From Trametes villosa (Eukaryota; Basidiomycota; Agaricomycetes; Polyporales; Polyporaceae): a stretch of DNA of 64,000 nt. The translations under genes and the position numbers were made by a program. The stretch's first letter is position 1, and each line of letters starts with the position of its first letter. The notes below the pieces were generated by a model. The model was given only the letters and a program-made list of their open reading frames with translations. It did no database searches and was not told the DNA's origin. The stretch spans positions 3,558,001-3,622,000 of the forward strand of contig PUDQ02000001.1 of assembly GCA_002964805.2 (NCBI GenBank). The letters are read 5' to 3'. Positions 1 to 58,975 of this stretch are shown here, one piece after another.

Positions 1-3000
1 CAAGAGCTCGAGGAGGATGCCGATCCGGAAGTTGCGGCTCTCTCTCCCCACGCCACGACCCGCACCGATCCCACAGCAGCTTTCGGTGCTGCAGCGGTGA
101 ACGGCAGCAGTCGAGATGGAGCTGGCTTTGGTATCCCCAAGCGCACAAGAACACCGGAGCCTTGGGCGAGACGTCTCGCGGACGACGGGATGTCCTACTA
201 TTACGTGAACAAGCTCGACGGCCAGGTTTCGTGGACAGTCCCTGAAGCCGGGGCTCAGGCTTACGCCGACGACGCACCGTCGCGGGAAACCGTGGCGCGA
301 AGTTCCCCCGCCGTCTCCGCCTCCTCAATACCGCACGCAAACGGAATCAATGGACGCGATTCCTCCAACTCCATGGGCCGCCTGCGATCTGGGTCCACCG
401 TGTCGCGTACGCGAGATCGCAGTGATAGCACAGCAGATCGACTCAGCATCCACTCCGACGACTCTGAAGTCTACCCCGTGAGGCGGGACCGGTCGGAGTC
501 TTCCCTGGGCGCGCAGAAGGTTAACGGGAACGGGGTGAGTCGCGTTGAGGCTGCTCCCAGTTCGTCGTCTTCTCGCTCGCAACCGCAAGCAAACCCCGGC
601 CTAGAGCTTACGGCAGCAGAAGAGTGCGCACGGGCGCTGCAGGAAACTCTCGCCCCCCAACCTCCCGAGTCCGCCGCCGAGCTGTCTAACCATGTCGGTG
701 AGGCGATTACGGCACTTCTGCGGTTCCTCAGGAGTTCGGCGGGGCCCCGTAGCCCTGATCAGTTCCGCGAGGTCGATCATCTGGTCCTCAAGGTGGTCGC
801 AGCGGTCCGCAACCTGCTTTACGTGACCGCCACCCCCAGTGGACACGTCGCGAGTCACCTCTACCCCCGGGACCCTCGCGACCCCAGAATAGCGACGTCG
901 GGGCAGACTCTCCAGGCACATCTGAAGGCCGCGCACCGTAAAGTTGCCGGGACGCTGTCAAAGCTTGTGCTATCCGCCCTGGCGATGCAGTACGACCCCA
1001 GCCTGTCTATCTCCGACAAGCCCAACAGGATGGAAGCGGATGTCGCCGAACTGGAACGAGCCGTCGTGGCATTCGTCGGGGAAGTACAATTCTTCCAGGA
1101 ACAGCACAAGCTCTCGAACTCGCTGTCCAGTTCGGGCACGAAGCGGCTGCATGGCGTGTTCTCGACTGCGAACATCGGCCTCGGGCTTCCCGGCGCGGGC
1201 GTTGCTGCCGACTGGCGGGGCCTGGGCTACGTTGCCGCAGAGGACGGCGCGGATGTACCTCAACAGGTGCTCAGCGACGACATCGTCATCGAGTACAAGG
1301 GCAGCCTGAAGGCGCTGGAAGCGAAGCTCGGCGCCTTGGTCATCTCGCTGAAATATCTGGACAGCCACCCCGGTACGTTGCAGTGCAAGTCTAATATGCG
1401 GGTTACGTAACTGACCGCTCCGTCGCGGATCCCCAGACCGCATCTCTGCAGAGGGACAGACGTCCTCCGCATATCTGTCCTATCTGCTCTCATACCTGGG
1501 AAGGATCAATGTGGCGCAACACGTCGACGTCGACGGCATCCGATCGGAGTCCGGCGCGTCCTCGGTGTCTCCGCAGTATATGCAGACGGTGGAGAAGGCG
1601 CGCTCGCTCGTACGCACGCTCGAGGCCTCTACGCAGGCGCTCTACGACGACGGCATGGTCATCTTCATGGCTGTCCAGAGCCTCGCGCGCCCAGAGCTGC
1701 TCAGCGCGAAGGAGCGCAACGGGCTCCTCAGCGTCATCGAGAGCACCGCGCCGACCGTGCGCTCGAACTGCGTCGTCGTCGCGCAGACGCTCGAGGCGCT
1801 CCTCGCGACGGGCCACGACCAGGCGGCAATCGGCCAGGGCGAGTACCGCAACTCCATCGAGTGGCGGACGTCGCGCATCAACATGACGGACGCGTCTATC
1901 GCGGCGCTCACGTCGCGCCTCGCGGACGTGCCGGCTGGGGATGATGAGTTCGTCGATATGGAGCTCGCGTTCAGCCGCCCCGGGATGCGTACGCTTCCGT
2001 CAACAGCGGAGGGCGGCAGCGGCGCCGCGTCGTCGTCTTCGGCGATGTACAGCAACGCGGGCCAGCCGTCGTCGCAGTCTTCCTTGGACATGTCTGACCG
2101 GTCACGGTCGGACAGCCTGAGCGAACCAGAGACGCCGACGTGGTCTCAGCCAGAGTCGACAGTAGGCAGCACGCTGGTCAACGGTGGGTCGGGGATCGAC
2201 ATGGGCCCCGACGAGCCTCTCGACGACGACGTAGCACCATACGTCGACGAGGAAGAACGTACGTCATCTTGCTGCTTTGTTAATTGTCGTGGGATACTTA
2301 TGCCTCATCCTATAGCTGTTATCATTGGCAAGTCCCCGTCGCGCGGTGGCGCAGGGAACAAGCTCATGAAGCTCCTCGGCCCGGAGACACCGCAAGACTA
2401 CATCAACCGGATGAACGCCGACCAGAAGCCATGGTACCTGCGGTCGAACTACGACCAAGCCGAGATCCTCATAGACCCAGATGGAAGCGTGCGTGCGGGT
2501 ACGGGGGCTGCGCTTGTCGAGCGGCTCACGGCTCATGAGCTTGGACGTACGTGGCGTCACGGATCGGAACCCAGACTATGTTGCTCATGGTCCTTCCTCC
2601 AACAGACACGGCGTTCAACAAGAACTTCTTGATGACGTTCAAGTCCTTCATGACTGTAGACGACCTCTTCGAGCTGCTCACCAAGCGCTTCTGGATACAG
2701 CCGCCTCTTGGGTTGAAACCTCAGGAGCTTGAGGAGTGGACCCGCTTGAAGCAGCAGATCGTCCGTGTCCGGTGCGTTGACTGCCCTTAGGGCGTCCGAC
2801 AGAACAACCAACTCACAGGCTCTGCAGCGTTCTCAATACCTTCCGGACGATGGTCACAGACGACGACATTCTTGAGAAAGAGGACATGTACATCCTTGGA
2901 CGGATGAAGGAGTTTGCTTCCCACGAGGAAGTCGTCACCTTCGCCGCAGCCAAGCAGCTCCTTATTCTCATTGAGCGCGCGGTACGCTACTTCCCCGTAT

Positions 3001-5208: not shown

Positions 5209-9182
<3,974 letters not shown>

Positions 9183-15374: not shown

Positions 15375-18300
15375 TCAATACGCGCGCGGACTATTTGCAG
15401 CACCAGCGGGGTTCACGAACCGCGCGAAGCTCGGGGAGTCGTACTCGAACAGGTCCGACTCCGCGTCCGAGTCCGACTCGTCCTCCTCCGAGTCCTCCTC
15501 GTACGTCGGCGAGAGCACGCCCACGCCGTGCCCGTTCGTGTGCTCGTGGCCGTTCACCCGGAAGACGTCGACGAACGGCGTTGGGGGCACGTCCCGCTCC
15601 GCGCCCTCCACCGACTTCGCGAGGATCGCAGCGACACGCGCCTCCAGCTGGCGGTGCGGCACCACGCCCCCGTTGCTGCTCGACGCGGGAGTGCCGCCGC
15701 CGGGGCTGACGACGTCCACGAGCGGCTCCTCCTGGAAGAAGCTGCTGAGCTCGTGCAGGTTCTGCACCATGTCGCCGATGTCGTCCCCGTCGCCGTGCAC
15801 GTCCCTGTCCTCGCCCCGGTGGCTGTGCGCGCGTCCGACACGGCCGAGCGCGAGCGCGGCGAGCTCGTCGTCCGGCTGGAAGTCGATGCGCGACGGGCGC
15901 AGCGTGCCCTTGCCGAGGTCGAACACGGCCGCGACGTTCGCGCGGCACGTCTCGCGGTGCGCGCCCGCGCGGGGCACGCACCAGCCCGACGGCTGCGGGA
16001 TGCCGAACACCTCCGCGACGCCCTCGACGTCGCGCGCGCTCGGGCGCAGGTGGTAGTGGAGGCTCATGCGCAGGACGTGCTTCGCCGCGGGCCCGCCGGA
16101 GATCTGCATAGGCTCGTCGAGCACGTCGAGCGCCTGCCCGGCGAGCGGCGTCTCGAGCAGACGCAGGAGCGGCATGAGCAGCTCCGAGCCGAGCAGGTCG
16201 ACCTGGCTCTTCGTCTCGCGCTGCTGGAAGAGGACCTTGAGGACCTGCATCGTGTGCACCTGCAGCCAGGGCGTGCTGTTCAGTGCGAGGCCCATGAGGA
16301 GCGTGATGACCTCCGTCCAGTGGTCAACGCCGTAATGGTCGCGGAGGCTCGCGACGGACTGCCGCAGGAAGTCGTCCCGCGTCCGGAAGCGCGCTTTGGC
16401 GAAGGACGTCATGATGCGCTGGATGCTCGGACGCTCCTCTGCCTCGGCCAACCGGCTGATGTTCAGCGCGAACTCCTGCAGGGACTCGTCCTTGGTGTCT
16501 TCGCTCATCGCGTGCAGACACCACGGGAGCGACAGCGTGTACAAGTCCCGGACACGCCCCTCCGACGCGTCGATTAGCCTGGGGTCGTCGACTTTCGCGA
16601 GGCGTTGCAGAAGCTTGAGCGTGAGGCCCGAGGTTGCCGACGAGCGCAGGCCGGTCAGCAGGTTGGCCTGAAGTGCGGCAGAACCAGTCCAGTTCGTCGG
16701 CATGTAAACGAGGAGGTGGTCGACAGTGTTGGGGTCGTCGAAGTCGATCCGGGTCAGCACGGTGTCGAGCAGCTGCAACGTGTGGAGGAACTCGGTTTCG
16801 ACGGTCGTGGACAGGCATGCAATGGCACACCAGAACAGCTGGGGAAGTTGGGATGCATCCAAGTCGCTCGAGGATGCTAGCGCGTTCAGAGTGCAGAGGA
16901 TCTCGACGTTGAAGCTCTGAATGGCGTCGTCCTCATCCGCGATCGTGTTGGCGAGCCGGCCCAGGAGCATCCCGACGTGTGTAGGCCCAATGCGAGGCGT
17001 TAGAGCACGGTACAGTTGGAGGGAGCGGAACGCAACCGGACGGATAGAACAGGCGGTGCCCCAGTTCAACGCGAGCGTGCCCCACTGCTCAGACAGCGTG
17101 GGGTGCAGTGGCTCTACGAGGTTGAGCACGGCATTGCCAAACCACCTCATCTTCGCCTCGACCTCCGTGCCGCTTTCGTCCTCCTTCCATACCCGCGCCT
17201 CTACTTCCTTCTCCAGATCCTGAATCGCCGCCTTCAGCTCGGGTCGAGATCGGTAGAGCGACCGGTCGGGTAGTTCGTCATAGCCTGTGAGACACGAGCG
17301 AAGAAGCTGGAAGAGCATGTGCCGAGAGCGCTGCTGGACGAAAGGGTGGCGGTGATCTAGGTGCATGAAGAGCGCGTGGAACAAGACTGAGAGTTGGTCC
17401 TGGAATTCCCAGTAGCGCTCGAGAGCCGTCTCCGAAAGGAAAAGAAGGGCGAACTGGGCGACGCCGAGCGATAGACGGGGCTCCCCGGAGAAGAGGATGT
17501 CCAGATCGGACCAGAGCTCGAGGTCCTCGTGGTTGGGAGGGGCTAACTTGTGCTCTATGCTAGGCAGCATGCGCGCGGGCTCTACCACGCTGCACAGTTC
17601 CTCGACCATCTGACGGCCGATGACGCTTTGAGAAAGACAGGCGACGATTTTGGCTGCGCAACCGATGAAGATCGTACTGCCAACCTTGTGCGACTGCTCC
17701 AACAGAAAGCGGATGACGGCGTGGCCGTTGGATTGGTTCGGGGTGTCGACAATCCGAGTCCAGAGGACTAGGACTTGTTCTGCGTACGACTCCGCATACC
17801 GCAACGTGAGCGCCATCAGATGGTAAATCGTCAGGCGGCCTTCGCTGGAGAGCCCCGACTTGTCGTCGTTCATGAGGTCGATGCTGGGCACCCAGTACTC
17901 GAGGCTCTGGAGGAGGAGCAGGACCCCGCGTTCGGAGCGGTTGTCGAAAACCCGTGGTAGCCAGTCAGCGAGCTGCGCCAACACCTTAATCGCCTGGTCA
18001 GGATGTTCACCCGCGAGTACGTCCGATATGAGTCGGTGGGCGTGAAGGTAGGTGCTCGGCGCTGAGCTTCCGACAGCGGCCTCGTATTGGGACAGTGAGA
18101 TGATTCCCATGGACTGCTCGTGGACCATCTCGAGCATGTTGAAGGCCTGGCGTCGAATCTCGAGGAGGGGGTGGCAGAGATTGGACAGGCCGAGACATAC
18201 GATTTGAGCGAAGCTGAACGCGGTTGCGGCGCCGCTACACATCGCATCAGCGACGACCTCGAAGAAGCGCGCGTTACTGGTATCCAGTTCCCGGGAGGTC

Positions 18301-21300
18301 ACGAAGGCCCGGCGCAGGCATTCGTCCAGGAACCCTGGACTGCAGCGGTTGTAACATACCAGAGAGCGCAGCGCTTTCCTGCAGACTGTGGGTCAGTACG
18401 AGGAACACCATAGGATGGTCGTTGCAACCCACTTTCCGGCAACCTGGACAGGCTCGTGAAACGAGGCCAGGATAGCGGTAAGTCGATCGAAGGTGGCGCC
18501 GACTTGAAGCGGCCGCACAGAGTCCAGGCCCTGCCGGTCTGTCGGGGAATTCGACTCGATGTCCGGAGGGAAGAAGGCCTTTTGCTGCGCAGGACGATCA
18601 GCGACGCCACCAGCAGGCTAAAGAGTACTGGGCTTACACAAAGAGAAGCCATGGCACCAATTGCTGCGTGCGACAGTGCCCGCGTCTCCGTCTGGAAGAC
18701 CTGGATGATCTCCGCCTGACTCGCGGGGTCGCTGTATGACTTCGCGGCCATGGTCTGCATGAGCACCAGGCGCTTCTTCACGTCCTCGGACTGCTTCCCG
18801 AGTTGACACCAGTCCTCGCACATCGTGTACAAGGCCAGGTGCAGATTGTGCGGAATGAAGCGATCAGAGTCCTTCAGCGTCGCCAAAGCATCGAAGAGCC
18901 GCTCGATGGTGCCGCAGAAGTATCGCCGAAGCCGTTGCATCGAGAAGCGATCACGATTGTCTGGGGCGATGAGGAATGTCTGCATGTTTCGCACGTACTT
19001 CAGCACGTATGTAAGCGCCGCCTGCCTCCCCGTGGACCGCTGATCTTGCAGGGAATGCGCGGTCAGGAAGTAGATGCGGGCGACTGCAGTGTGGAAGCGC
19101 TCCTGCCGACGAGCCCGTCCGATCATAGGTGTCGCAGTTGCCGCTTTGCTCCTGGGATCGTCATAGTGCTGTCGTGACTGGTGCTTGCTGAGGTCTTCCA
19201 GCAGCTGCGAGTACCCAATAGCCGGGAACGAGCTGATGCATGAGACAGCTAGGTCGCGGAAGACGGTGAAGTCCGAGTCGAGGAACCGGCTCAGCGCCCA
19301 GAACAGGTCGTGCGTGGTTTGCATCTGGTCCGTACCGAAGTCAGTGTCTGACCGGGCGCGGGAGTGGTCCCGCATCGCGCCGAGCGCGGGTCTGGAGTCG
19401 GCGACGAGTGCGGTCGCGCAAATGAGCTTGAGCCATAGGTGCCACTGGCTGATCGCGTCCCTGTTCTCCACAACCAGACGCGCGCCATCGCGGTCGCCAG
19501 ATCCTGTGCGCTGAGGTACGTTCGAGGGGAAGCGTGAGTTCACCCCGGAGAGCTGGAGCATGGTCTGCGTGCCGCGGGCGGCCGCTGCCACGAACTTCTC
19601 CCGAAGGGTGGTCCCGATCGACGGCGAGTGGTCCATGTATGTCTGAACGAAAAGCGAGTAGACGTGCCTCCACAGAACCCTGTCAGTAGAGTGCTCGCTA
19701 TCGGCCAGCCGGACGAGCTTGTCGGGATGGGTAGACTGTCGCCACTGGCCTAACCTCGCGAGTTGGTCAGGCTCCAAGACGTCGTCAAGGCCACGGAAGA
19801 AGAGATCAGAGGAGCCCTCTTCGAACAGGCCATGTACGAACGCAAAGAGGTCGTGCTGGTTGATCGACGCGGGGGTGGACGGCTCCGGACTCATGTGTTC
19901 CATGAGGAGCTTCAGCAGCCGGACCGCCTTCACGCCGGCCGTGTACGCTGACGACTTGCGGTGTGCGAGCAGGAAGAACGCGCCCGTCTCGATCTCCTCC
20001 ACGCGTGCAACGACGTTCTCCATCTCCTCGTTCGTCCACTCCTGCAGGGTGTTCTCGAGCGTCTCGTGGACCCAGCGGTCGACGAAGCTGATCCAGAGGT
20101 TGAGAAGGCGCGCACACTCGATGGGAAGGCGCATCCCGAAGCCTTCCTGCGCGATGGACGAGGTGCTGAAGAGAAACGCGGAGAAGCGGGAGAGGAGGGC
20201 AGGGCCATGAGCAGCCTCCCCCATGAATCGCTGCAGAGCCGCTGTTGCCGCTTCCCCGACAGCGGGCTCAATGTGGATGACCCCGCGGATGAGCATGTCG
20301 AAGGCGTCGTCGAGCGAGAGGGAAGAGTGGAGACATCGTGGCCAGGACTGGTAGATGACCTGGAGAATGTTGATCTGCGGGGAGTACTGGTCCGAGTACG
20401 CCACAGAGCCTTCAGGGTGGTGGCGGATGATGTAGTTGTGCGTCTCTTCGTATGCGGGGCCGAGGCGGGAGGTCGACCACTGCTCGTCGAGGACGGACCA
20501 CTTGCCGACGGACTGGTGGCACGCCGACGCTACAATGGCGAGGCAGGACGTGGCTCTGTCCAGGAAGTCCATCCAATTCGTCTTTGACGATATGGACGCA
20601 GGAAGAGTACTAGATGACGTTGGATAGTCCTCCCATGGTGGTATGCTCGTGAAGTCAGTACTCGAGGGCCAAGAGGGCACTGGTTCTTCCCGCTCGATCA
20701 GGTTCAGAGACAAGAGGATAGCCTGAGTAGCGATCGTCATCCGCTCTGGGGCGAGAACGTGCGCGATCTGCGAGGACTGGGAGTTGATGTGGCGTTCCTG
20801 GAGGAGGTCGAGACAGAGCTCGCTGCCGATGTCGAAGTGGCGCGAAAGTGCGAAGTGGACCATGTATATGAACGGTTGGAGATGGTCCTCCTGGGGAACG
20901 ACCACAAGGCGGTTAGGCGGGAAGAAGTGCTTGAAGACGCCGTCGAGCTTCGCGGAGGCGGTAGATGCTGGCTCATGACAGCGGTACAAGTATGTCCAGA
21001 GGAGTCGCAGCATGCCGTTCAGGACGGTCATCCGGTGGAGTTTTTCCTGTAACAGGTCGTTTTTAGGACCTGTGATCCGTGAGGATGATCGTTTACATAC
21101 CTTGAGCCTACCAAGCCCAGCTTCAAAGCAGGCCGACCAGTTACGCAGGAAGTATTCGTGCGGGGCCACGCAAAGCGTAGTGACGGCCAGGGGATAGGCC
21201 ACAGCCCAGTAGCGAGGTTTCGTCGTCATATCTCTGGCCTTGGGATAGATTACCTCAACGGCTTTGGCCCACTCTGGATGATTGACTTCCGCCTGCGCAG

Positions 21301-23168
21301 TCTATGACAGTAGCCTGTAAGAGGGAGGCCTACTTGCGATTGAAACTTCTCGTATACCTTGCCAATCGGATGCAGTAGCTGCACCAGCGTTTCCGCGAAT
21401 ATCGTCTTCAGACGGTTTCCATGGGCGTTATCGAACGACTTGGACAGGGATGCTAGAAACTCGGCGCCCTCTTCGAAGCGTTCCGGAGGCCATACCTACA
21501 GCTCCGTTGACGCGGCGTTCGGAAAAAATTGCTCGTATAGAAGCATACCTTGATATGAATGTGCTTCAGGCCTTTCACGAGGTTCTCGAACCTCATGTCC
21601 GCATCCTTGGCTACCTGACCCGCTGCTATGGGCCCAAGCTCCGTGAGGAACCTATCCGTCACGCTCTCAAAACTGCTGCAGGTTAATCACTGCTCCGCCA
21701 GCACACCCCGTTGAAAGCACGTACCGTATATCCGCGAGGTGCCCGAGTAGCGCCGCGTGCAACTCGGCATTACATCGATAGTTCGCCGACTGCATCGTCA
21801 GCTTCGCATCGTGCCGCTTGAACTGCTCGAACGTCAACTCCTCCAGGCTGTGGCCCACCGCCTCTGGCAAGCCGTCCTTGGAGATCGACCGCGCGACGGC
21901 AATCAGCGCACGCGACATGATGTATATCGACGCGAGCCACTTGCGCTCGTTCAGCGCCTGCGGGACATCGGGCATGCGGAGCGCGCGCGAGCCTGACGGT
22001 GACTGCGAGAGGTGGTGGCGGAGCAGGTCCTGGCTCGCCGGGTCGCTCTGGCTCTTCCGCCAGCGCATGACGGAGTCGACGACGGGTTTGGCGTGCCGTT
22101 GCGCGATCTTGCCCAGGGAGGAGAGCATGCCGTCGAATTTCTCGTCTACTCCAGGGCCCATGTAGTCCTCGAGGTGGGGTTCACGGTCCTACGTAGGCGA
22201 TCAGACACACTCTCGGGCTTATAATTAGACTCGGGACATACCAGTGGTAGGCGCAGAAACTCGTCGATATGCGACTCTGCTGCTGCTGCGAAGCGGAGGA
22301 ATATAGCATGCAGTGCATAGTCCGAGGGCGTCTTGGGGTCGGGTACAACCCTATCTTCGCCGTCAGAGAACGAACTGGTGTCATCGACATGCCCTCCAAA
22401 CGCAGTCGGCATGGGCGGAACCGGCGGCGGCGACGACGATAATGGATAGTGGTCATGGTCACTGCCGTTCTCCGAGCTGTAGAAGATAGACCCCGAGTGT
22501 GTGTGCTGGGAACGCGCGTAGTCTTTCGACTTCGGTGTCTTCGCCCGGCCCTCTCCGCCGCCTGGAGTAGCCGGCCTGAACTGGGGTGGACTCGCGTTCG
22601 CCGTAGTCTGGCGCGAGAGCGCAGGCGTAACCTGTGCAAGAGAGGACGTCGATCGGTTGAACGGGTCCACGTTGAGCGCGGGGTACGCGGGCATCGGTGG
22701 TGGTGCCTCGTTGCTCTTCTTGAACGCATTCCGGAGCGACGCGAACGAGGACTTCTTCGTGAACGGCGAGCTGCTTGTCGTAGCGACGGATGACTGCGTC
22801 GAGTGCGTGAACGGCGCCGCCTTCGCCGCCTTGCGCCCCACGCCGGCGCCGTAGGGCACGGACTGGCCCGAGTCCTGGGAGGTAATCGAGTCACCCCGCG
22901 CGTGGAAGTACGACCCGCCCGTGCGCTCGCTTATTCCCTGCGGGGTGAGGATCGTAGGGGAGTCGAGCCCGGAGCTGCTGCTCGCGTTGCCCCATATGCT
23001 GGCCTGTCCGGCCGCACGACCGAAGAAGGGGCCGGCGCGGAAGGTGTCATCATCGTCGTTGAAGTCTTCACGTACACCGCAGCAGAGGCAGGAGTGGAAC
23101 GGTAAGACGAGTCCGTCAGGGAAATACTATGGAGACATACCGGGAATAGTGATTTGCATCCCGTCCAT
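15375..23168 (-). CDS. mor2: Furry/Mor2/Tao3-type cell morphogenesis scaffold
   Basis: Furry-family proteins are very large HEAT/armadillo scaffolds for NDR (Orb6/Cbk1) kinases in polarised growth and cell separation. Exon 1 is 23168-23141 (MDGMQITIP plus one base). After a short intron the frame resumes as DFNDDDDTFRAGPFFGRAAG. The conserved N-terminal block reads FDGMLSSLGKIAQRHAKPVV and ALNERKWLASIYIMSRALIA. Two long open stretches follow, 18,299-21,229 and 15,375-18,302 (e.g. YWAVAYPLAVTTLCVAPHEY; FWCAIACLSTTVETEFLHTL). The C-terminus is an acidic, Ser-rich tail ending NSPRAY. Total length is roughly 2,400 residues, within the family range. Five or more short introns cluster in the N-terminal third. 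Confidence 0.93.
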
Positions 23169-41048: not shown

Positions 41049-41913
41049 CTACAAATCTCTCGTAGCACTCATCTCCTTCGCCCCCGGCAGCACGTCGTCC
41101 CAGCGCGGATGCTCGCCCCACCCCCTCGCAAAGTTCAGCGCCGCCAGACACATCTGCCGCGCGCACTTCTCGTACCCCACGTCCCCGCTGCCCGTCCCCA
41201 GCCCCGTCACGAGCACGCGCGCGACCTTCCCCGCGCCCGCCGGCCGCTCGCCCGCGTTCCAGCGGTCGAGCGCGGTGAGCAGGTTCCACGTGCACTCGTA
41301 CACGAGGTCGCGGTGCCACGCGACGCTCTCGGGGATGCGCATGGTCGGCACGACGGCGACGCTCGTGCACCCGAGCGCGTTCGCCGCGGTGAGCGCGGGC
41401 GGGAGCGGCACGAGCGTGCACGAGCCCGGCGGGAGGTAGCCGCGGTGGCGCGTGCGCAGCGCGTCTTGCACGACGTTTGTGAGCGCCCAGATGTCGTTGT
41501 CGAGTGCGAATGCGCGGGAGAGCGCCATGTCGTATCTGTCTCGCGTGTCTCCGCGTCAGGATACACTCGCCCCCCTCCCTTGATGTGTGCGAGGGAGAAC
41601 AGGGAAGACAGACGCACCCGCCGTCCATGATCCCGAACGAGTTCGCGGGGGACATGATGCAGTCGAACGTGCCGAACTCCTGCGCTAGCGACGCCGCATT
41701 GAATCGCGCCTCCTTGATCGTGAAGCGTGCGGCGACAGCGGGCGGTAAGTCAGCGAGAGCGGTGCGCCATGCAGCGCCGAGCGACGGCGCTGCTTCCCCC
41801 GTGCGTGGGTTGATGAACGGAGGCAGGTCGATTAGGACGATAGATGGGATGATGGAAGGGTCGGGCTCAGGGCGCTCGCGGGGAGGACGGGGGGCCGTCA
41901 GGAGCTGGTCCAT
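41049..41913 (-). CDS. Macro-domain protein A
   Basis: Macro domains bind ADP-ribose or hydrolyse it from proteins and nucleic acids. Two exons: 41913-41618 and 41535-41049, split in phase 2 inside the ADP-ribose loop. Exon 1 carries a Pro-rich start, then FTIKEARFNAASLAQEFGTF and CIMSPANSFGIMDGG, where SPANS takes the place of the usual NAAN. Exon 2 continues YDMALSRAFALDNDIWALTN, HRGYLPPGSCTLVPLP, VVPTMRIPESVAWHRDLVYE and the second phosphate loop VLVTGLGTGSGDVGYEKCAR. Length is about 260 residues. The gene is convergent with CLYBL (60 bases between stops). A paralog is at 58,045. Enzymatic activity is inferred only; some members just bind ADP-ribose. Confidence 0.88.
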
Positions 41914-42854
41914 AGTTCAACGGAGCTTGGTTGGTGGAGAGGAACTAGTACCGCAGCTTTCAGGCCTCAGTATTTATCAGATTGCCCCCGAAGAATTCGG
42001 TACGTGTACACGACGTATCAAGGAAAGCGACACGTACCGGCAGTGTCGGTTGTGCTTCGAACGTTGCGTAGACCGGTGCTGCACGTGTCACGATGCACCT
42101 GTTGGCTGTGGCAGACGTGACTCGACGCTTCTTCGAATCCTCGTTTATTGCCCTCGAGGGCTGGGCCCTATGGTAGGCGATACAGGCGGGTGGCTACGGA
42201 ACGGGGGGAGCAAGGGGTCGGCGATTGTATGTAGGCATGAGAGCAGGGGCCGGAGGACCGCCGCAGGCAGCGGCCAGTAGTATGAGTAAGGAAGCCAGAG
42301 ATCAAGCATGTATAGAAGAAGACCGCCGGGCACGAGAGAGAAGAGAAAGCTAGCTTAGGGTGACGCCGCACCCACCGCGCCGGCCGCGGACGGCAGGGCA
42401 CCGGGTCATAAACCCTCCGCAAGCTTCAGGTCGGTGCAAGCACCGCCGGGCTATTATGCCTCTTGCTACGAAGGGGGTACGCGCGTTGGGCAGACACCGC
42501 AGCGGCGTCGGAACTCCCCCGGCCCCACGCGTGTATCATGCCCATGGCGCCCCCTGTGAGTCGATACCAAGTAGACCGTTAAAATCAAAGCGCAAAGAGT
42601 AAAAGAGAGAGACCAGGGGGGCCGGCCGCGCCCAGGAGCCACACCGCCCACCAATCAGTCACCACCGCCGTCGCCGTCGCTGTCTGGGTAACCCGACCGG
42701 GTGACTCGACGCTTCTTCGCGCTCAGCCGCTTCGGTGGCACAGATACAATTACACGGGATATCCGGGTCCCAATTCATCCACAATTGAGCAGGCGCAGAG
42801 TCAGGGGGGCAGGTATTGAAGAGCGGTAAAGTAGGGCGCGCCCCAAGCCATCGC
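41914..42854. promoter_or_regulatory. promoter of macro gene A and intergenic
   Basis: On the minus strand GATAAATAC (41970-41978) lies about 57 bases upstream of the macro A start and is a plausible TATA element. The rest (about 900 bases) holds no supported gene. Confidence 0.45.
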
Positions 42855-43324
42855 CTATGCAGCCCCTGCGGCTTTCCTGTGCTGCCCCTCGATGACAATT
42901 GATGCCCACTCAATCGCGTCGCGGTGCGGGAAGAGCGCCTCGTTATGCGGAGCGGACGCTATAGTTGTCGCGACGTCGGGCTTGACGGAGAGCTTGAGGA
43001 ACGCCTTCTTCATGTCGTCCTCTGCACACATTACAAAAAGCGATCAACAGTCTGGCAGTGCAGCGAAGGTAAAGGGGGAGGTACGCACTGTTGTAGAAGT
43101 ACATGAGGTCGCCCATGTTAGCGTTCTCGTACCAGTAGTCCTGAATGAAGACCACCGGGTTCTTGAGGATGCGGTCGCGCTCGGACGCGTACTTGGTGGC
43201 GAGGCTTTTCGCGAGCTCATCAGTGATGCCACAAGAGCTAAGCGCTGCAGTAATGGCGTTCAGTCGCTATATCGGACGTCAAAAGGGTTTGGGACAGCCT
43301 ACCCTTGACAAGGTCTGCGGACAT
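42855..43324 (-). CDS. Small unknown cassette protein P1 (114 aa), partner of ART-like gene 1
   Basis: I do not recognise the family. Three exons on the minus strand: 43324-43303 (only 22 nt, MSADLVK plus one base), 43244-43089 and 43021-42855. The product reads ALSSCGITDELAKSLATKYA, then DRILKNPVVFIQDYWY, LMYFYNKDDMKKAFLKLSVK, and the strongly conserved tail HNEALFPHRDAIEWASIVIE. It is soluble, of balanced charge, mostly helical by eye, and has no signal peptide or membrane segment. A paralog (44767-45255) has the same three-exon structure and about 91 of 114 identical residues. Each copy is head-to-head with a DUF3990-like ART gene, which suggests joint regulation and function. A TATA-like GATAAATAC lies 72 bases upstream (43396-43404). 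Confidence 0.88.
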
Positions 43325-43975
43325 GGTGTTTGTGTGCGTTACGTATGGGAGTTTGCGTGTGGGGATACGTGGGATGCAAGTCCCGGGGCTGGGGTGTATT
43401 TATCGCAGAACGAGAGCTGGAGGAGGTGGGTGGAAAGGCGCAGCCCAGGAGGGAGAGAGGGGACCGAACCATAAACCATCCCAGGAGGTCTGTGGCTGTG
43501 GCGTTGTGGCGTGCGAAATACACCCGGGAGTGGTTCAGGCCGGTCTCGCTGGATGCCCTCCGCCGGTGGCATCTTCGTGCTTCCCGTCTCAGCGCGGGCT
43601 GAGTTCTGTCGATGTCTGCCTCATCTCCTCCTTCCCAGCAGCGCTGAACTACATCAAACGTCCGATGACCGTCTCGCGAAGATATCACCGGGGTCTCGCG
43701 CCCATAATGGGCCCAGCTATCCATGTTTGGGGGTGAACGCGCACCTACTATGACCCGAGCTCTCGGGAAGAGAAACCGGCGTTGAGCATCTCCTGGATGT
43801 CCGGTGGCATACGCGTAACTAGTGCCATGTCGAAGGACGAACTCTACCTGAACAGCGCAGAACCTAAACAGCAACGCCGAACTTGAAATATCGCCGAAGG
43901 CCGATAGATTAAATTCACAACCACCTCTGTCTTCGTTCGCAGCACCCCCGCACCCCGCACAGTACGCTCTGCATC
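43325..43975. promoter_or_regulatory. shared divergent promoter region, P1 / ART1
   Basis: 651 bases between outward-facing starts. The corresponding P2/ART2 spacer is 631 bases. The two spacers share short patches such as GTTGTGGCGT and a GA-rich tract followed by ACCGAACC, so they look like diverged duplicates. No gene is visible inside. Confidence 0.5.
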
Positions 43976-44676
43976 ATGTCCACCGGCCCCGAGTACGAAC
44001 CCGGAAAGACCACGCACGCGCAGCTCGTCGAGCGCAAGGCTCCCCCCGACAACGTCATCCATCTCTACCACGGTACCGACTCTGTCTCCGCCGAGAAGAT
44101 CAAGGCGGCGCGCCCGGGGCTCTTCTGCGTGCCCTTCCACGACTTCGCCATGGGCCGTAACACTGCATTCTACTTGACGACCTCGCACGAAACCGCCGCG
44201 AACTTCGCGAAAGAGCGCCTGTCGACGCTCGATCCGGCGAGCGGGACGAAGGCGGCGGTGGTCAGCGTCACACTGCGGCGGGACAAGGTGAAGATCCACG
44301 AGTTCGACGAGGTCGACCCGTGGAAGGAGGTAACGCTAAAACTGGGTGACGCGCGCGTTGCTTGTAGCGCTGACGGGTGCAATACAACGCAGCTCGTGAA
44401 TTACAACCGCGACAAGAGCAGGCCGAAGGGTAAGCCGCAGCACCCGCTGGTCCTGGCGAACGATGTCATTGCGGGTTGGATCTCTACGCAAAGCAAAATA
44501 AGTAAGTGCAGTGCGATTGGAAGTCGGCCATACTGACCTTTACCGCTCTAGATGGACGAGTGCCTGTGGCATACCCGGATAGTAAAGGGGTGAATCACTT
44601 CGACTGGCAGTATGTCATTGTCACGCAGAAGGGACTCGACACTTTGGAGGATATAGCGGTGGAGATACTGCCGTAG
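43976..44676 (+). CDS. ADP-ribosyltransferase-fold protein (DUF3990-like), ART1
   Basis: Likely member of the ART superfamily, which transfers ADP-ribose from NAD+; the target is unknown. Three exons: 43976-44329, 44393-44501 and 44552-44676, giving about 195 residues. Motif I is HLYHGTD near residue 29 (nicotinamide-ribose-binding His-Gly-Thr). Motif II is DFAMGRNTAFYLTT with the aromatic Tyr, followed by the NAD-site helix HETAANFAKERL. Later blocks are VVSVTLRRDKVKIHEF, PWKELVNYNRDK, DVIAGWIST and FDWQYVIVTQKGLDTLED, where Gln stands at the usual Glu position. This order is that of DUF3990. No secretion signal is present. Convergent with P2 (90 bases) and head-to-head with P1. The family call is by eye; activity is not proven. 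Confidence 0.82.
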
Positions 44677-44766
44677 GTTGGCGACCTCGCCCCTCGCCCC
44701 TCTTGTAATGAGATCATCACGAGCCACGGGGGACCCGGGCAATGCTTATATATTCCCAACCTTCGT

Positions 44767-45255
44767 CTACGCGGCCCCTGCGGCCCTCCTGTGCTGCCCC
44801 TCGATGACGATCGACGCCCAGTCGATAGCGTCGCGGTGCGGGAAGAGCGCCTCGTTGTGCGGGGCGGCAGCGATCTTCGTCACGACCTCGGGCTTGACGG
44901 ACAGCTTGGTAAGCGCCTGCTTCATCTCGTCCTCTGCGCATGCATAAATTCAGTATCTTGCCTTCACTCATACCCGAAAGCGGAAGCCGACACGCGGAGA
45001 GAACGCAAGGTACGCACTGTTGTAGAAGTACATGAGACTGCCCAGGCCGGCGGTCGCGTACCAGTAGTCCTGGATGAAGGCGACCGGCTCCTTGACGATG
45101 CGGTCGTGCTCGGACGCGTACTTCGTGGCGAGCGTGTGCGCGAGCTCGTCGGTGATGCCGCACGAGCTGAGCACTGTCGCGTTCATGCATAGATGTGAGC
45201 ATATACCCTCTCTGCAGCGACCCGGACGCTCACCTTTCACCAAGTCGGACGACAT
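44767..45255 (-). CDS. Small unknown cassette protein P2 (114 aa), partner of ART-like gene 2
   Basis: Paralog of P1. Three exons: 45255-45234 (22 nt), 45173-45018 and 44933-44767. The product has 114 residues: MSSDLVKVLSSCGITDELAH at the start and HNEALFPHRDAIDWASIVIE near the end. By direct comparison 23 of 114 positions differ from P1, mostly conservatively, with no gap. Both introns are at identical codon positions and phases (phase 1 after codon 7; phase 1 before the Asp-rich third exon). The retained reading frame with mainly conservative changes argues for purifying selection. Function is unknown; an inhibitor, chaperone or substrate of the adjacent ART-like protein are all possible. 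Confidence 0.88.
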
Positions 45256-45886
45256 GCTGGGAGGAGGATTGACGGGGTGTTGAGAGTGCAGGTAGTGGTT
45301 GCAGATAGCAAGAGACTCGGAAGGGCTCGACGATTGATATCAAGGACAAAGAGAGGAGTAGGGGAGTTGGCGTCGGCGAGGGCGACGAATCGGCACCGAA
45401 CCCTCAACCGGAGCGACTAGTACCTTGTCTGTGACGTTGTGGCGTACGGAGCCTGTGGTTCAGCGGTACCGTGAGCTTTCACTGATGCCTCGAATCCTTG
45501 TCTGCCCTGTTTTGCGTCTATAGAATCCCCTCTAGCGTCCCTTGGAACGGCATGTATACACCCACGCTGTCCGGGAACTAGGGGTACCGGGTCGCAAAAC
45601 GGGTCATGGAGCTTCGGTGCCTTGTGGCACTAGGGTCACACTAGCATCGGGTGCTGAAGGGATGGTGTCGGACGTCTGCTCCTCCGGAGGACCTTTGTTA
45701 TGTAGCTGTCGTACGTCAGGCACGAACCGCTTCGACGCGACCGTGGATATGTACCTGGCCAACGAACAGTGTGAGTGGCATTGAAATATCCAGACGAGTT
45801 GACCAACACCACTTCACCAGCTAGAGCCCCCTCCCCGACCGAAAACTCGACATCTCCGCCGGACAACCAGCCGACACATCGCGCAC
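45256..45886. promoter_or_regulatory. shared divergent promoter region, P2 / ART2
   Basis: 631 bases between outward-facing starts, equivalent in position to the P1/ART1 spacer. A GAAATATCC stretch at about 45,783 may serve ART2. No other gene is seen. Confidence 0.45.
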
Positions 45887-46638
45887 ATGGAAGGAGGTGA
45901 CACTTCCGGGAAGAAAGAGCCCCTCAAATACGTCGCCGGTCAGACCACGACCGAGCAGCTCACCGCCGAGAAGCTGAAGATCGCCGAGGGCGACGACCCG
46001 AACATCATCCACCTCTACCACGGCACCGACGCGGTCGCCGCCGAACGAATCCTGGCTGAAGGCGTGCAGTTCTTCAACCAGCCGTTCCACGACTTCGCGA
46101 TGGGCAAGAACACCGCGTTCTACACCACGCCCTCGTTCGAGACCGCGCAGATGTACGCCGTGGAGCGCATAAACATGGCCGGCACGAAGCCGGCCACGGT
46201 CGTGCGCGTCACCGTGCGGCGGGATAGGGTGAAGATGTGGGAATTCGCAGATGTGGAGAAGTGGGAGGGGGTGCGTGCGGGTTCAGCCCTGCGCCATGCA
46301 TGCATCTGGGACTGACGTGTTAGCTTCGTAGCTCATTAAACACAACCGCGACAGGGACCGGCCGAAAGGGAAACTTCAACACGAGAAAGTGCGGGAATAC
46401 GACATCGTCGCAGGCTGGATCAGCACACAGAACCCAGCGGGTGAGCGTGTTTTCGCCTCTGCTCGCGCTGAGTATTGGCTGAACCGCCACGGCGTAAGGC
46501 GATGGCTATGTACCCGTAGCATACCTGTACCCCGATGGGGGGTCCCGATTCGCATGGCAGTATGTCATTGTTAGCGAGCATGGACGCCTGGCCCTAGAAG
46601 ATGTGAGGGTCGTATGGGAACAGGCGGCCCAAGGCTGA
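45887..46638 (+). CDS. ADP-ribosyltransferase-fold protein (DUF3990-like), ART2
   Basis: Paralog of ART1 with introns at equivalent sites. Exons: 45887-46270, 46332-46440 and 46499-46638. Motifs: IIHLYHGTDAVAAERIL, FHDFAMGKNTAFYTTPSFET, VVRVTVRRDRVKMWEF, KWEG then LIKHNRDRDRPKGK, YDIVAGWISTQNP, VPVAYLYPDGG and FAWQYVIVSEHGRLALEDVR. The His, Tyr and Gln pattern is the same as in ART1. The N-terminal 35 residues and the C-terminus (VVWEQAAQG) differ. By eye only about half of the aligned residues match ART1, clearly less than the roughly 80% of the partner pair. The acceptor at 46,499 is chosen because it restores VPVAY seen in ART1; the next AG gives a slightly shorter product. Confidence 0.82.
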
Positions 46639-58044: not shown

Positions 58045-58975
58045 ATGTCCGCCCCACCCGCCCCACCCAAGCCCGCCCACGACCTGAACACGCTCCCAAC
58101 CTCCCGCCCGCCCAAGCCGCTGCCCCCGCCGGACCCCTCCGTTCTCCCGTCCTTCGTCCTCCTCGCCCCGCCCCCGCGCACGCACCCGCGCACGCACGTC
58201 ACCCAACCCTCGCTCTGCGCGGCGTGGCGCGCGGCGCTCGCGGCGGACGACGTCTCGCCCGCGGTCGCGGCGCGCTTCGCGGTGAAGGAGGCGCGGCTCG
58301 ACCCCGCCGCGCTCGCGGAGGAGTTCGGGCCGTGCGCGTGCGTGGTGTCGCCCGCGAACGCGTTCGGGATCATGGACGGCGGGTGCGTCTCCCTCCCTAT
58401 CCCTTCCCCTCTCGTGCGCATACATCGCGAGGGTGCATGCACCAGTGTATGTGATATTTGCTAACGCGAGCGCTCGGGGCAGGTATGACATGGCGCTCTC
58501 CGTCGCGTTCACCGTCGAGCGCGACATCTGGGCACTCACGGACGTCGTGCAAGACGTGCTGCGCACACGGCACCGCGGGTACCTCCCGCCCGGGTCGTGC
58601 GCGCTGGTCCCGCTCACCCCCGCGCTGACCGCGTCGAACGCGCTGCGCTGCACCGTGCTCGCCGTCGTCCCCACCATGCGCACGCCCGAGGACGTCTCCT
58701 GGCACGTCGACCTCGTGTACGAGTGCATGTGGAACCTGCTCAGCGCGCTGTGGCGCTGGAACGAGGTACCCGGGGAGCGGCCGGAGGGCGCGGAGAGGGT
58801 GGAGCGGGTGTTGTTGACGGGGCTGGGGACGGGGAACGGGGGGATTGGGTATGAAAGGTGTGCGCGGCAGATGGTGCTTGCGGCGGAGAACTTTGCGAGG
58901 GGGTGGGGGGAGCGGCCGAGGTGGGATGATGTGGAGACGCGGGCGAAGGAGATGGATCGGTCGAGGAGGGTGTAG
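58045..58975 (+). CDS. Macro-domain protein B
   Basis: Paralog of macro A in the opposite orientation. Exons 58045-58382 and 58483-58975, split in phase 2 at exactly the same Gly-Gly as in macro A. After a Pro/Lys-rich start (MSAPPAPPKPAHDLNTLPTS) the shared blocks are FAVKEARLDPAALAEEFGPC, CVVSPANAFGIMDGG, YDMALSVAFTVERDIWALTD, VLRTRHRGYLPPGSCALVPL, AVVPTMRTPEDVSWHVDLVY and LLTGLGTGNGGIGYERCARQ. About 277 residues. Exon 1 is extremely GC-rich. The ADP-ribose loop (SPANAFG) and the second glycine loop are intact, so binding is likely; hydrolase activity is not assured because the catalytic residue differs between macro classes. Confidence 0.88.

Follow-up and report, generated by a model that had tools for sequence, protein, structure and literature searches.

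A duplicated divergent gene pair coding for a small orphan protein and a DUF3990-type ADP-ribosyltransferase-fold protein in Trametes villosa

DUF3990 (PF13151) and DUF3791 are still listed by Pfam as families of unknown function, and DUF3990 is named among the ADP-ribosyltransferase (ART) families with eukaryotic members in a survey of these families (PMC7955679). In bacteria, it occurs in the cassette DUF3791-DUF3990-M13C, corresponding to the PADLOC candidate system PDC-M13, for which 3,324 occurrences were reported in rumen genomes (PMC13356809). No description of a fungal DUF3990 gene pair was found in the literature on DUF3990, DUF3791 and PDC-M13. Here, we describe a 64,000-bp stretch of the genome of the basidiomycete Trametes villosa (the window, C1:3558001-3622000 of a 46.7-Mb assembly of 140 contigs), in which a small protein, P, and a DUF3990-type protein, ART, are encoded by two divergent gene pairs, P1/ART1 and P2/ART2, with a macrodomain-like gene, MAC1, nearby. 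We take the system for a variant of a bacterial arrangement already known, set apart by its eukaryotic layout and by a partner unrelated to the bacterial ones; the bacterial cassettes that it resembles are candidate toxin-antitoxin or anti-phage systems. A fungal DUF3990 copy with a partner gene of its own offers a simple eukaryotic two-gene test of the role of this ART family, and could also show if fungi possess counterparts of the ADP-ribosylation conflict systems of bacteria.

The bacterial cassette resembles the fungal pair in the ART family, which is the same over the whole domain, in the positions of the H-Y-Q triad and in the presence of small adjoining partners. Its genes overlap in one operon-like row and its two partners are related to each other, whereas the fungal pair is divergent, with spacers of 651 and 631 bp, carries introns and has a single partner unrelated by sequence. 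In DarT-DarG, a two-gene operon in which DarG is an ALC1-like macrodomain protein (PMC7050489), an ART also lies near a macrodomain; in the fungal locus, however, the gene of macrodomain type stands apart and matches Macro_2 only below the cut-off, and the ART belongs to DUF3990, not DarT. Linked writers and erasers of ADP-ribose are described, fungi included, for the SirTM/zinc-macrodomain pairs (PMC11490716), where the writer is a sirtuin, unlike the DUF3990 ART found here. The RES-type pairs ParT-ParS, MbcT-MbcA and NatR-NatT differ from the fungal pair in that the identity is 6-10%, in their partner families and in the RES profile, for which no match to ART1 or ART2 was obtained with Pfam. 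PARP1-HPF1, in which HPF1 completes the catalytic domain of PARP1 (PMC10317172), provides a model for P as a partner that completes an ART active site, although no sequence relation was seen.

The duplicated P/ART unit

Gene models were based on the GT-AG splice consensus and on the comparison of paralogs. The window is of fungal character, with a G+C content of 60%, genes that bear introns and T. versicolor as the source of the closest named protein relatives.

P1: 42855-43324, minus strand, 114 aa, three exons (43303-43324, 43089-43244, 42855-43021), splice model
Divergent spacer 1: 43325-43975, 651 bp, P1 to ART1
ART1: 43976-44676, plus strand, 195 aa, exons 43976-44329, 44393-44501 and 44552-44676, DUF3990-type protein with a predicted ADP-ribosyltransferase fold
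P2: 44767-45255, minus strand, 114 aa, exons 45234-45255, 45018-45173 and 44767-44933, paralog of P1
Divergent spacer 2: 45256-45886, 631 bp, P2 to ART2
ART2: 45887-46638, plus strand, 210 aa, exons 45887-46270, 46332-46440 and 46499-46638, DUF3990-type protein
23-bp block: 43493-43515 in spacer 1 and 45426-45448 in spacer 2, some 170 bp upstream of the two P starts

The exon lengths calculated from the coordinates were the same in P1 and P2 (22, 156 and 167 nt), and amounted to 354, 109 and 125 nt in ART1 and 384, 109 and 140 nt in ART2, with introns in phase 0 and then phase 1 in both ART genes. An earlier reading of the DNA made from the sequence only had given both units one order, orientation, exon number and intron phase, with spacers of 651 and 631 bp, and the splice models agreed with it exactly; the start-to-start distances of 1,931 bases for P1-P2 and 1,911 bases for ART1-ART2 were reproduced to the base. 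With 80% identity between P1 and P2 (BLASTP E 2e-72) and 52% between ART1 and ART2 (E 2e-54), a chance likeness of the two units is excluded. The proportion of synonymous differences (pS) was of the same order in the P pair (0.41) and the ART pair (0.53), and since the difference was insignificant (z about 1.7 in a hand binomial estimate), one joint duplication fits. P/ART was duplicated as a unit, as the sequence-only reading had held, and a single duplication with later retention of both copies is the likeliest course of events. The ratio of nonsynonymous to synonymous rates (dN/dS) was 0.21 for the P pair and 0.45 for the ART pair, which indicates that both were maintained as proteins under purifying selection. 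The spacers have diverged save for the 23-bp block, well conserved and in register (87%, E 0.001), which is possibly a shared control element.

An exon-by-exon protein search of the T. villosa genome (E up to 1) detected P at two places and ART at two places, all in the cluster. Family searches of the same genome with PF13151 and with Macro_2 gave zero matches, missing ART1 and ART2 and the macrodomain-like MAC1 and MAC2 themselves, so family counts in this genome are lower bounds. Relatives of ART were scarce among 5.8 billion database proteins: the ART-profile search revealed seven, two from Trametes versicolor and five on contigs of 979 to 3,554 bases, with no bacterial-named protein among them. 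The T. versicolor proteins VTO73DRAFT_5732 and VTO73DRAFT_5734 are encoded on the same 2,321,043-base contig, two locus tags apart; it is speculative that the intervening tag codes for a P. For P, the same database (E up to 1) contained one relative, P0001, encoded on a contig of 1,430 bases and apparently with an intron retained. Back-translated patterns of the ART alignment had no match in viral and genome contigs, nor had those of P in viral contigs, and tblastn gave no match for P0004 in plasmids or for ART2 in phages.

ART proteins and their bacterial relatives

ART2 passed the PF13151 cut-off of 32.2 bits with a score of 34.4, and ART1 was placed just below it with 30.4 bits (E 3.7e-7). 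A precomputed PF13151 annotation is present on the proteins P0003 and P0004 and absent on P0002, P0005 and P0006. The fungal ART profile aligned with that of bacterial DUF3990 at 98.3% probability in hhalign (E 1.5e-14) over residues 29-189, including the C-terminal Q motif. In PADLOC (E up to 1), the ART set A1 matched PDC-M13A with all seven members (best 1e-6; P0002 0.024) and PDC-M13B with six of the seven (best 1.4e-5). A confident structure model of the T. versicolor relative, made with a 65-row alignment that took in 58 of 73 rows, matched ParT, PARP and diphtheria-type chains; it replaced a first model from 10 rows, with a predicted local distance difference test score of 58 and insignificant structural matches. 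The H-Y-Q triad is conserved in ART and its positions are shared by the bacterial relatives, the third position over the 65 rows being Q in 61, E in one and a gap in three. The profiles and the model firmly point to ART as a member of DUF3990 with a predicted ADP-ribosyltransferase fold, in accordance with the assignment to the DUF3990/ART clan in the sequence-only reading. In the tree, six fungal ARTs grouped together with support of 100/100 on a branch of 2.86, and due to the length of this branch, their placement beside Bacteroidota is not trusted.

The bacterial set comprised at least 128 loci (9 viral and 119 genome contigs) chosen by the DNA pattern for DFGKGFY followed by one hydrophobic residue and T. 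A DUF3990 open reading frame (ORF) was present in 126 of the 128 loci; 122 of these ORFs had at most 260 aa, and the partner count excludes the four longer ones. Partner families were defined as single-linkage BLASTP clusters at 1e-4. Among the matches listed, a partner-family gene overlapped DUF3990 upstream in 105/122 loci and followed downstream in 94/122 (81 overlapping), while both partners were found in 90/122 and at least one in 109/122; due to the selection by one pattern and the restriction to matches listed, such fractions are not unbiased frequencies. The first count on 84 loci, likewise among the matches listed, gave 72 upstream, 65 downstream and 63 with both; this count, the Pfam/PADLOC sampling, the profile alignment and the tree were made from 89 of the 128 loci. 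Among the ten loci first counted as partnerless, inspection by eye pointed to small overlapping genes on the same strand in several, one of them DUF3791 according to Pfam. With all loci used, upstream and downstream partners fell into one cluster, which agrees with the kinship of the two partner groups (hhalign 95%).

Partner families were called on two upstream and three downstream cluster proteins, one protein outside the clusters (L011), L054 and L013. Two sampled upstream proteins were DUF3791 by Pfam, and in PADLOC two sampled upstream proteins were PDC-M13A and three sampled downstream proteins PDC-M13C. One sampled DUF3990 protein matched PDC-M13B first, then M13A and M10A. The layout of the bacterial loci matches the candidate anti-phage system PDC-M13. 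In the PADLOC models PDLC04433-04446, the M13A label spans DUF3791- and DUF3990-type models and M13B spans DUF3990-type and small M13C-like ones, so the component letters do not correspond one-to-one to families. DUF3791 is fused to HTH_3 (Xre-type) just upstream of DUF3990 in L030 (before 5979-6533, plus strand) and L054 (before 958-1434, minus strand), and L013 looks like a third such case, cut by the contig end. Autoregulating antitoxins are usually built in this way, with a helix-turn-helix domain. The IMG/VR contigs L011, L013, L014, L017, L018 and L019, classed as viral, also carry short DUF3990 genes next to other small genes, so phages or prophages may spread the cassette.

Possible working of the P/ART pair

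The explanation that we put forward, with a probability of roughly 0.42, combines a fungal DUF3990 ART, a small regulator of its own, P, and a macrodomain-like protein that removes or reads the product of ART. P and ART would be transcribed divergently from one intergenic region and would thus be made together. ART would bind nicotinamide adenine dinucleotide (NAD+) through its H-Y-Q site and ADP-ribosylate an intracellular target or consume NAD+, whereas P would bind ART and restrain it until a virus, non-self fusion or stress triggers its release. The ADP-ribose mark would be removed or read by the nearby macrodomain-like protein, and the P/ART pair, duplicated as a unit, would be maintained in both copies. 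The bacterial DUF3791-DUF3990-M13C cassettes would work on a like principle, though their partners are unrelated to P. The steps that we infer are the catalysis by ART, P-ART binding, inhibition, co-expression, the role of the macrodomain and the trigger.

P1 and P2 gave no match in Pfam or NCBIfam (E up to 10) or in PADLOC (E up to 1), and nothing convincing among PDB sequences (E up to 10; best E 0.38). P is therefore an orphan, as it also lacks a match among the bacterial partner profiles. Its position, the joint duplication and the bacterial analogy suggest that P is likely the partner of ART, and a functional link between the two, as inhibitor or as cofactor, is likely.

Several observations weigh against the proposed regulator. 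The hhalign probability of P with DUF3791 or M13C was 0.1-0.4%, with a P profile of three sequences only, and P as a diverged form of either was rejected at the sequence level; a structural kinship is conceivable. The P gene is divergent from ART and shares no operon with it. Conservation is higher in P than in ART (80% vs. 52%; dN/dS 0.21 vs. 0.45), unlike a co-diverging toxin/immunity pair; the suggestion that P and ART work together is plausible because bacterial DUF3990 genes also sit with small partners, while the higher conservation of P opposes its version as a cognate effector-immunity pair. T. versicolor has two ART genes, but the P search (E up to 1) gave no P from this species; the claim that the pair is kept together holds for the T. 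villosa genome, where all copies found are in the cluster. PDC-M13 is itself a computational candidate, and in one study two other PADLOC candidates gave no defence (PMC12409345). Both macrodomain assignments, MAC1 and MAC2, are under the Pfam cut-off. A macrodomain hidden Markov model (HMM), which recovers 10/10 known macrodomain loci (nine of which had served to train it), was matched in one of the 128 bacterial DUF3990 loci listed (L107, where the DUF3990 motif is some 3 kb away), and the macrodomain link is consequently without bacterial support. An earlier check with a regular expression gave 0/88 DUF3990 loci, but it finds just 2/10 known macrodomain loci.

The neighbourhood of P and ART could also be due to chance, the two genes having been duplicated together and serving separate functions. 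The result for T. versicolor and the divergence of the spacers outside one block agree with this, whereas the failure to find an unlinked P or ART copy in the T. villosa genome, the intactness of both pairs under purifying selection and the frequent partners of bacterial DUF3990 make it a doubtful explanation, though one to be reckoned with. The boldest reading, in which a filamentous fungus has on its chromosome a eukaryotic toxin-antidote or innate-immune module made of a DUF3990 writer with an H-Y-Q site, a restraining or completing P specific to fungi and an adjacent macrodomain eraser, all multiplied together, seems rather unlikely.

P might instead be an obligatory cofactor, completing the active site or directing the substrate in the manner of HPF1 with PARP1. 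The glutamine of ART in place of the catalytic glutamate of related ARTs and the stronger purifying selection on P would be in accordance with such a role, but HPF1 was absent from the PDB sequence matches of P at E up to 10, and the glutamine is also present in the bacterial relatives, which have other partners; we consider the cofactor unlikely. An RNA-repair or tRNA-type 2'-phosphotransferase (Tpt1/KptA-like), to which the best Foldseek matches obtained with the initial low-quality model (E 0.13 and 0.29, both to structures of Tpt1) and weak NCBIfam (ART2 E 0.036) and PHROG (best 0.071) matches pointed, is highly improbable given the ParT, PARP and diphtheria types listed for the better model and the NCBIfam score of 13.6 against a cut-off of 231 bits. 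An exported ART effector with P for self-protection, modelled on the Rhs-carried DUF3990 domain of Serratia Rhs5-CT with its small downstream immunity candidate (PMC4524185), has equally little to commend it, as ART1 and ART2 showed no Pfam match to a delivery domain and, by eye, no hydrophobic N-terminus.

Macrodomain-like neighbours

Two further genes of the window concern the proposed removal or reading of ADP-ribose:

MAC1: 41049-41913, minus strand, 260 aa, two exons (41618-41913, 41049-41535), Macro_2 match, motif SPANSFGIMDGGYD
MAC2: 58045-58975, plus strand, 276 aa, two exons (58045-58382, 58483-58975), paralog of MAC1

MAC1 is the nearest gene modelled beyond P1, at a distance of 941 bp in which a small gene might lie. 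MAC2, 70% identical to MAC1 and inverted relative to it, lies 11.4 kb beyond ART2; a search of the genome with MAC1 as query detected no further copy. MAC1 matched Macro_2 (PF14519) with E 0.0037 and 17.1 bits against a cut-off of 27, the better match of the MAC1/MAC2 pair having E 4e-4. It also matched an ADP-ribose-binding model of NCBIfam (E 0.015, under the curated cut-off) and, in PDB, 1njr (E 0.83), presumably a yeast macrodomain protein. The macrodomain kind was thus the sole family listed for MAC1 in each of three libraries, while PADLOC gave no match. The hhalign comparison with nine bacterial macrodomains was colinear and insignificant (0.4% probability). Taken from these profile matches, MAC1 probably codes for a macrodomain. 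By its position, it may belong to the P/ART module, and the ART cluster beside a macrodomain-like gene, noticed after the fact, is a suggestive lead. The Macro family model identified at least one further gene in the T. villosa genome, on contig C27, a minimum as MAC1 and MAC2 were missed. MAC1, MAC2 and the bacterial three-gene cassette are additions to the sequence-only reading.

An exact 19-bp direct repeat (42117-42135 and 42701-42719) is located between MAC1 and P1. Beyond ART2, on the side opposite to P1 and MAC1, lies a gene for DNA polymerase alpha subunit B. Elsewhere in the window, two long open frames, each with some 1,000 residues, overlap (15378-18392 and 18302-21301, minus strand); they have a coding-like composition and possibly form one large gene.

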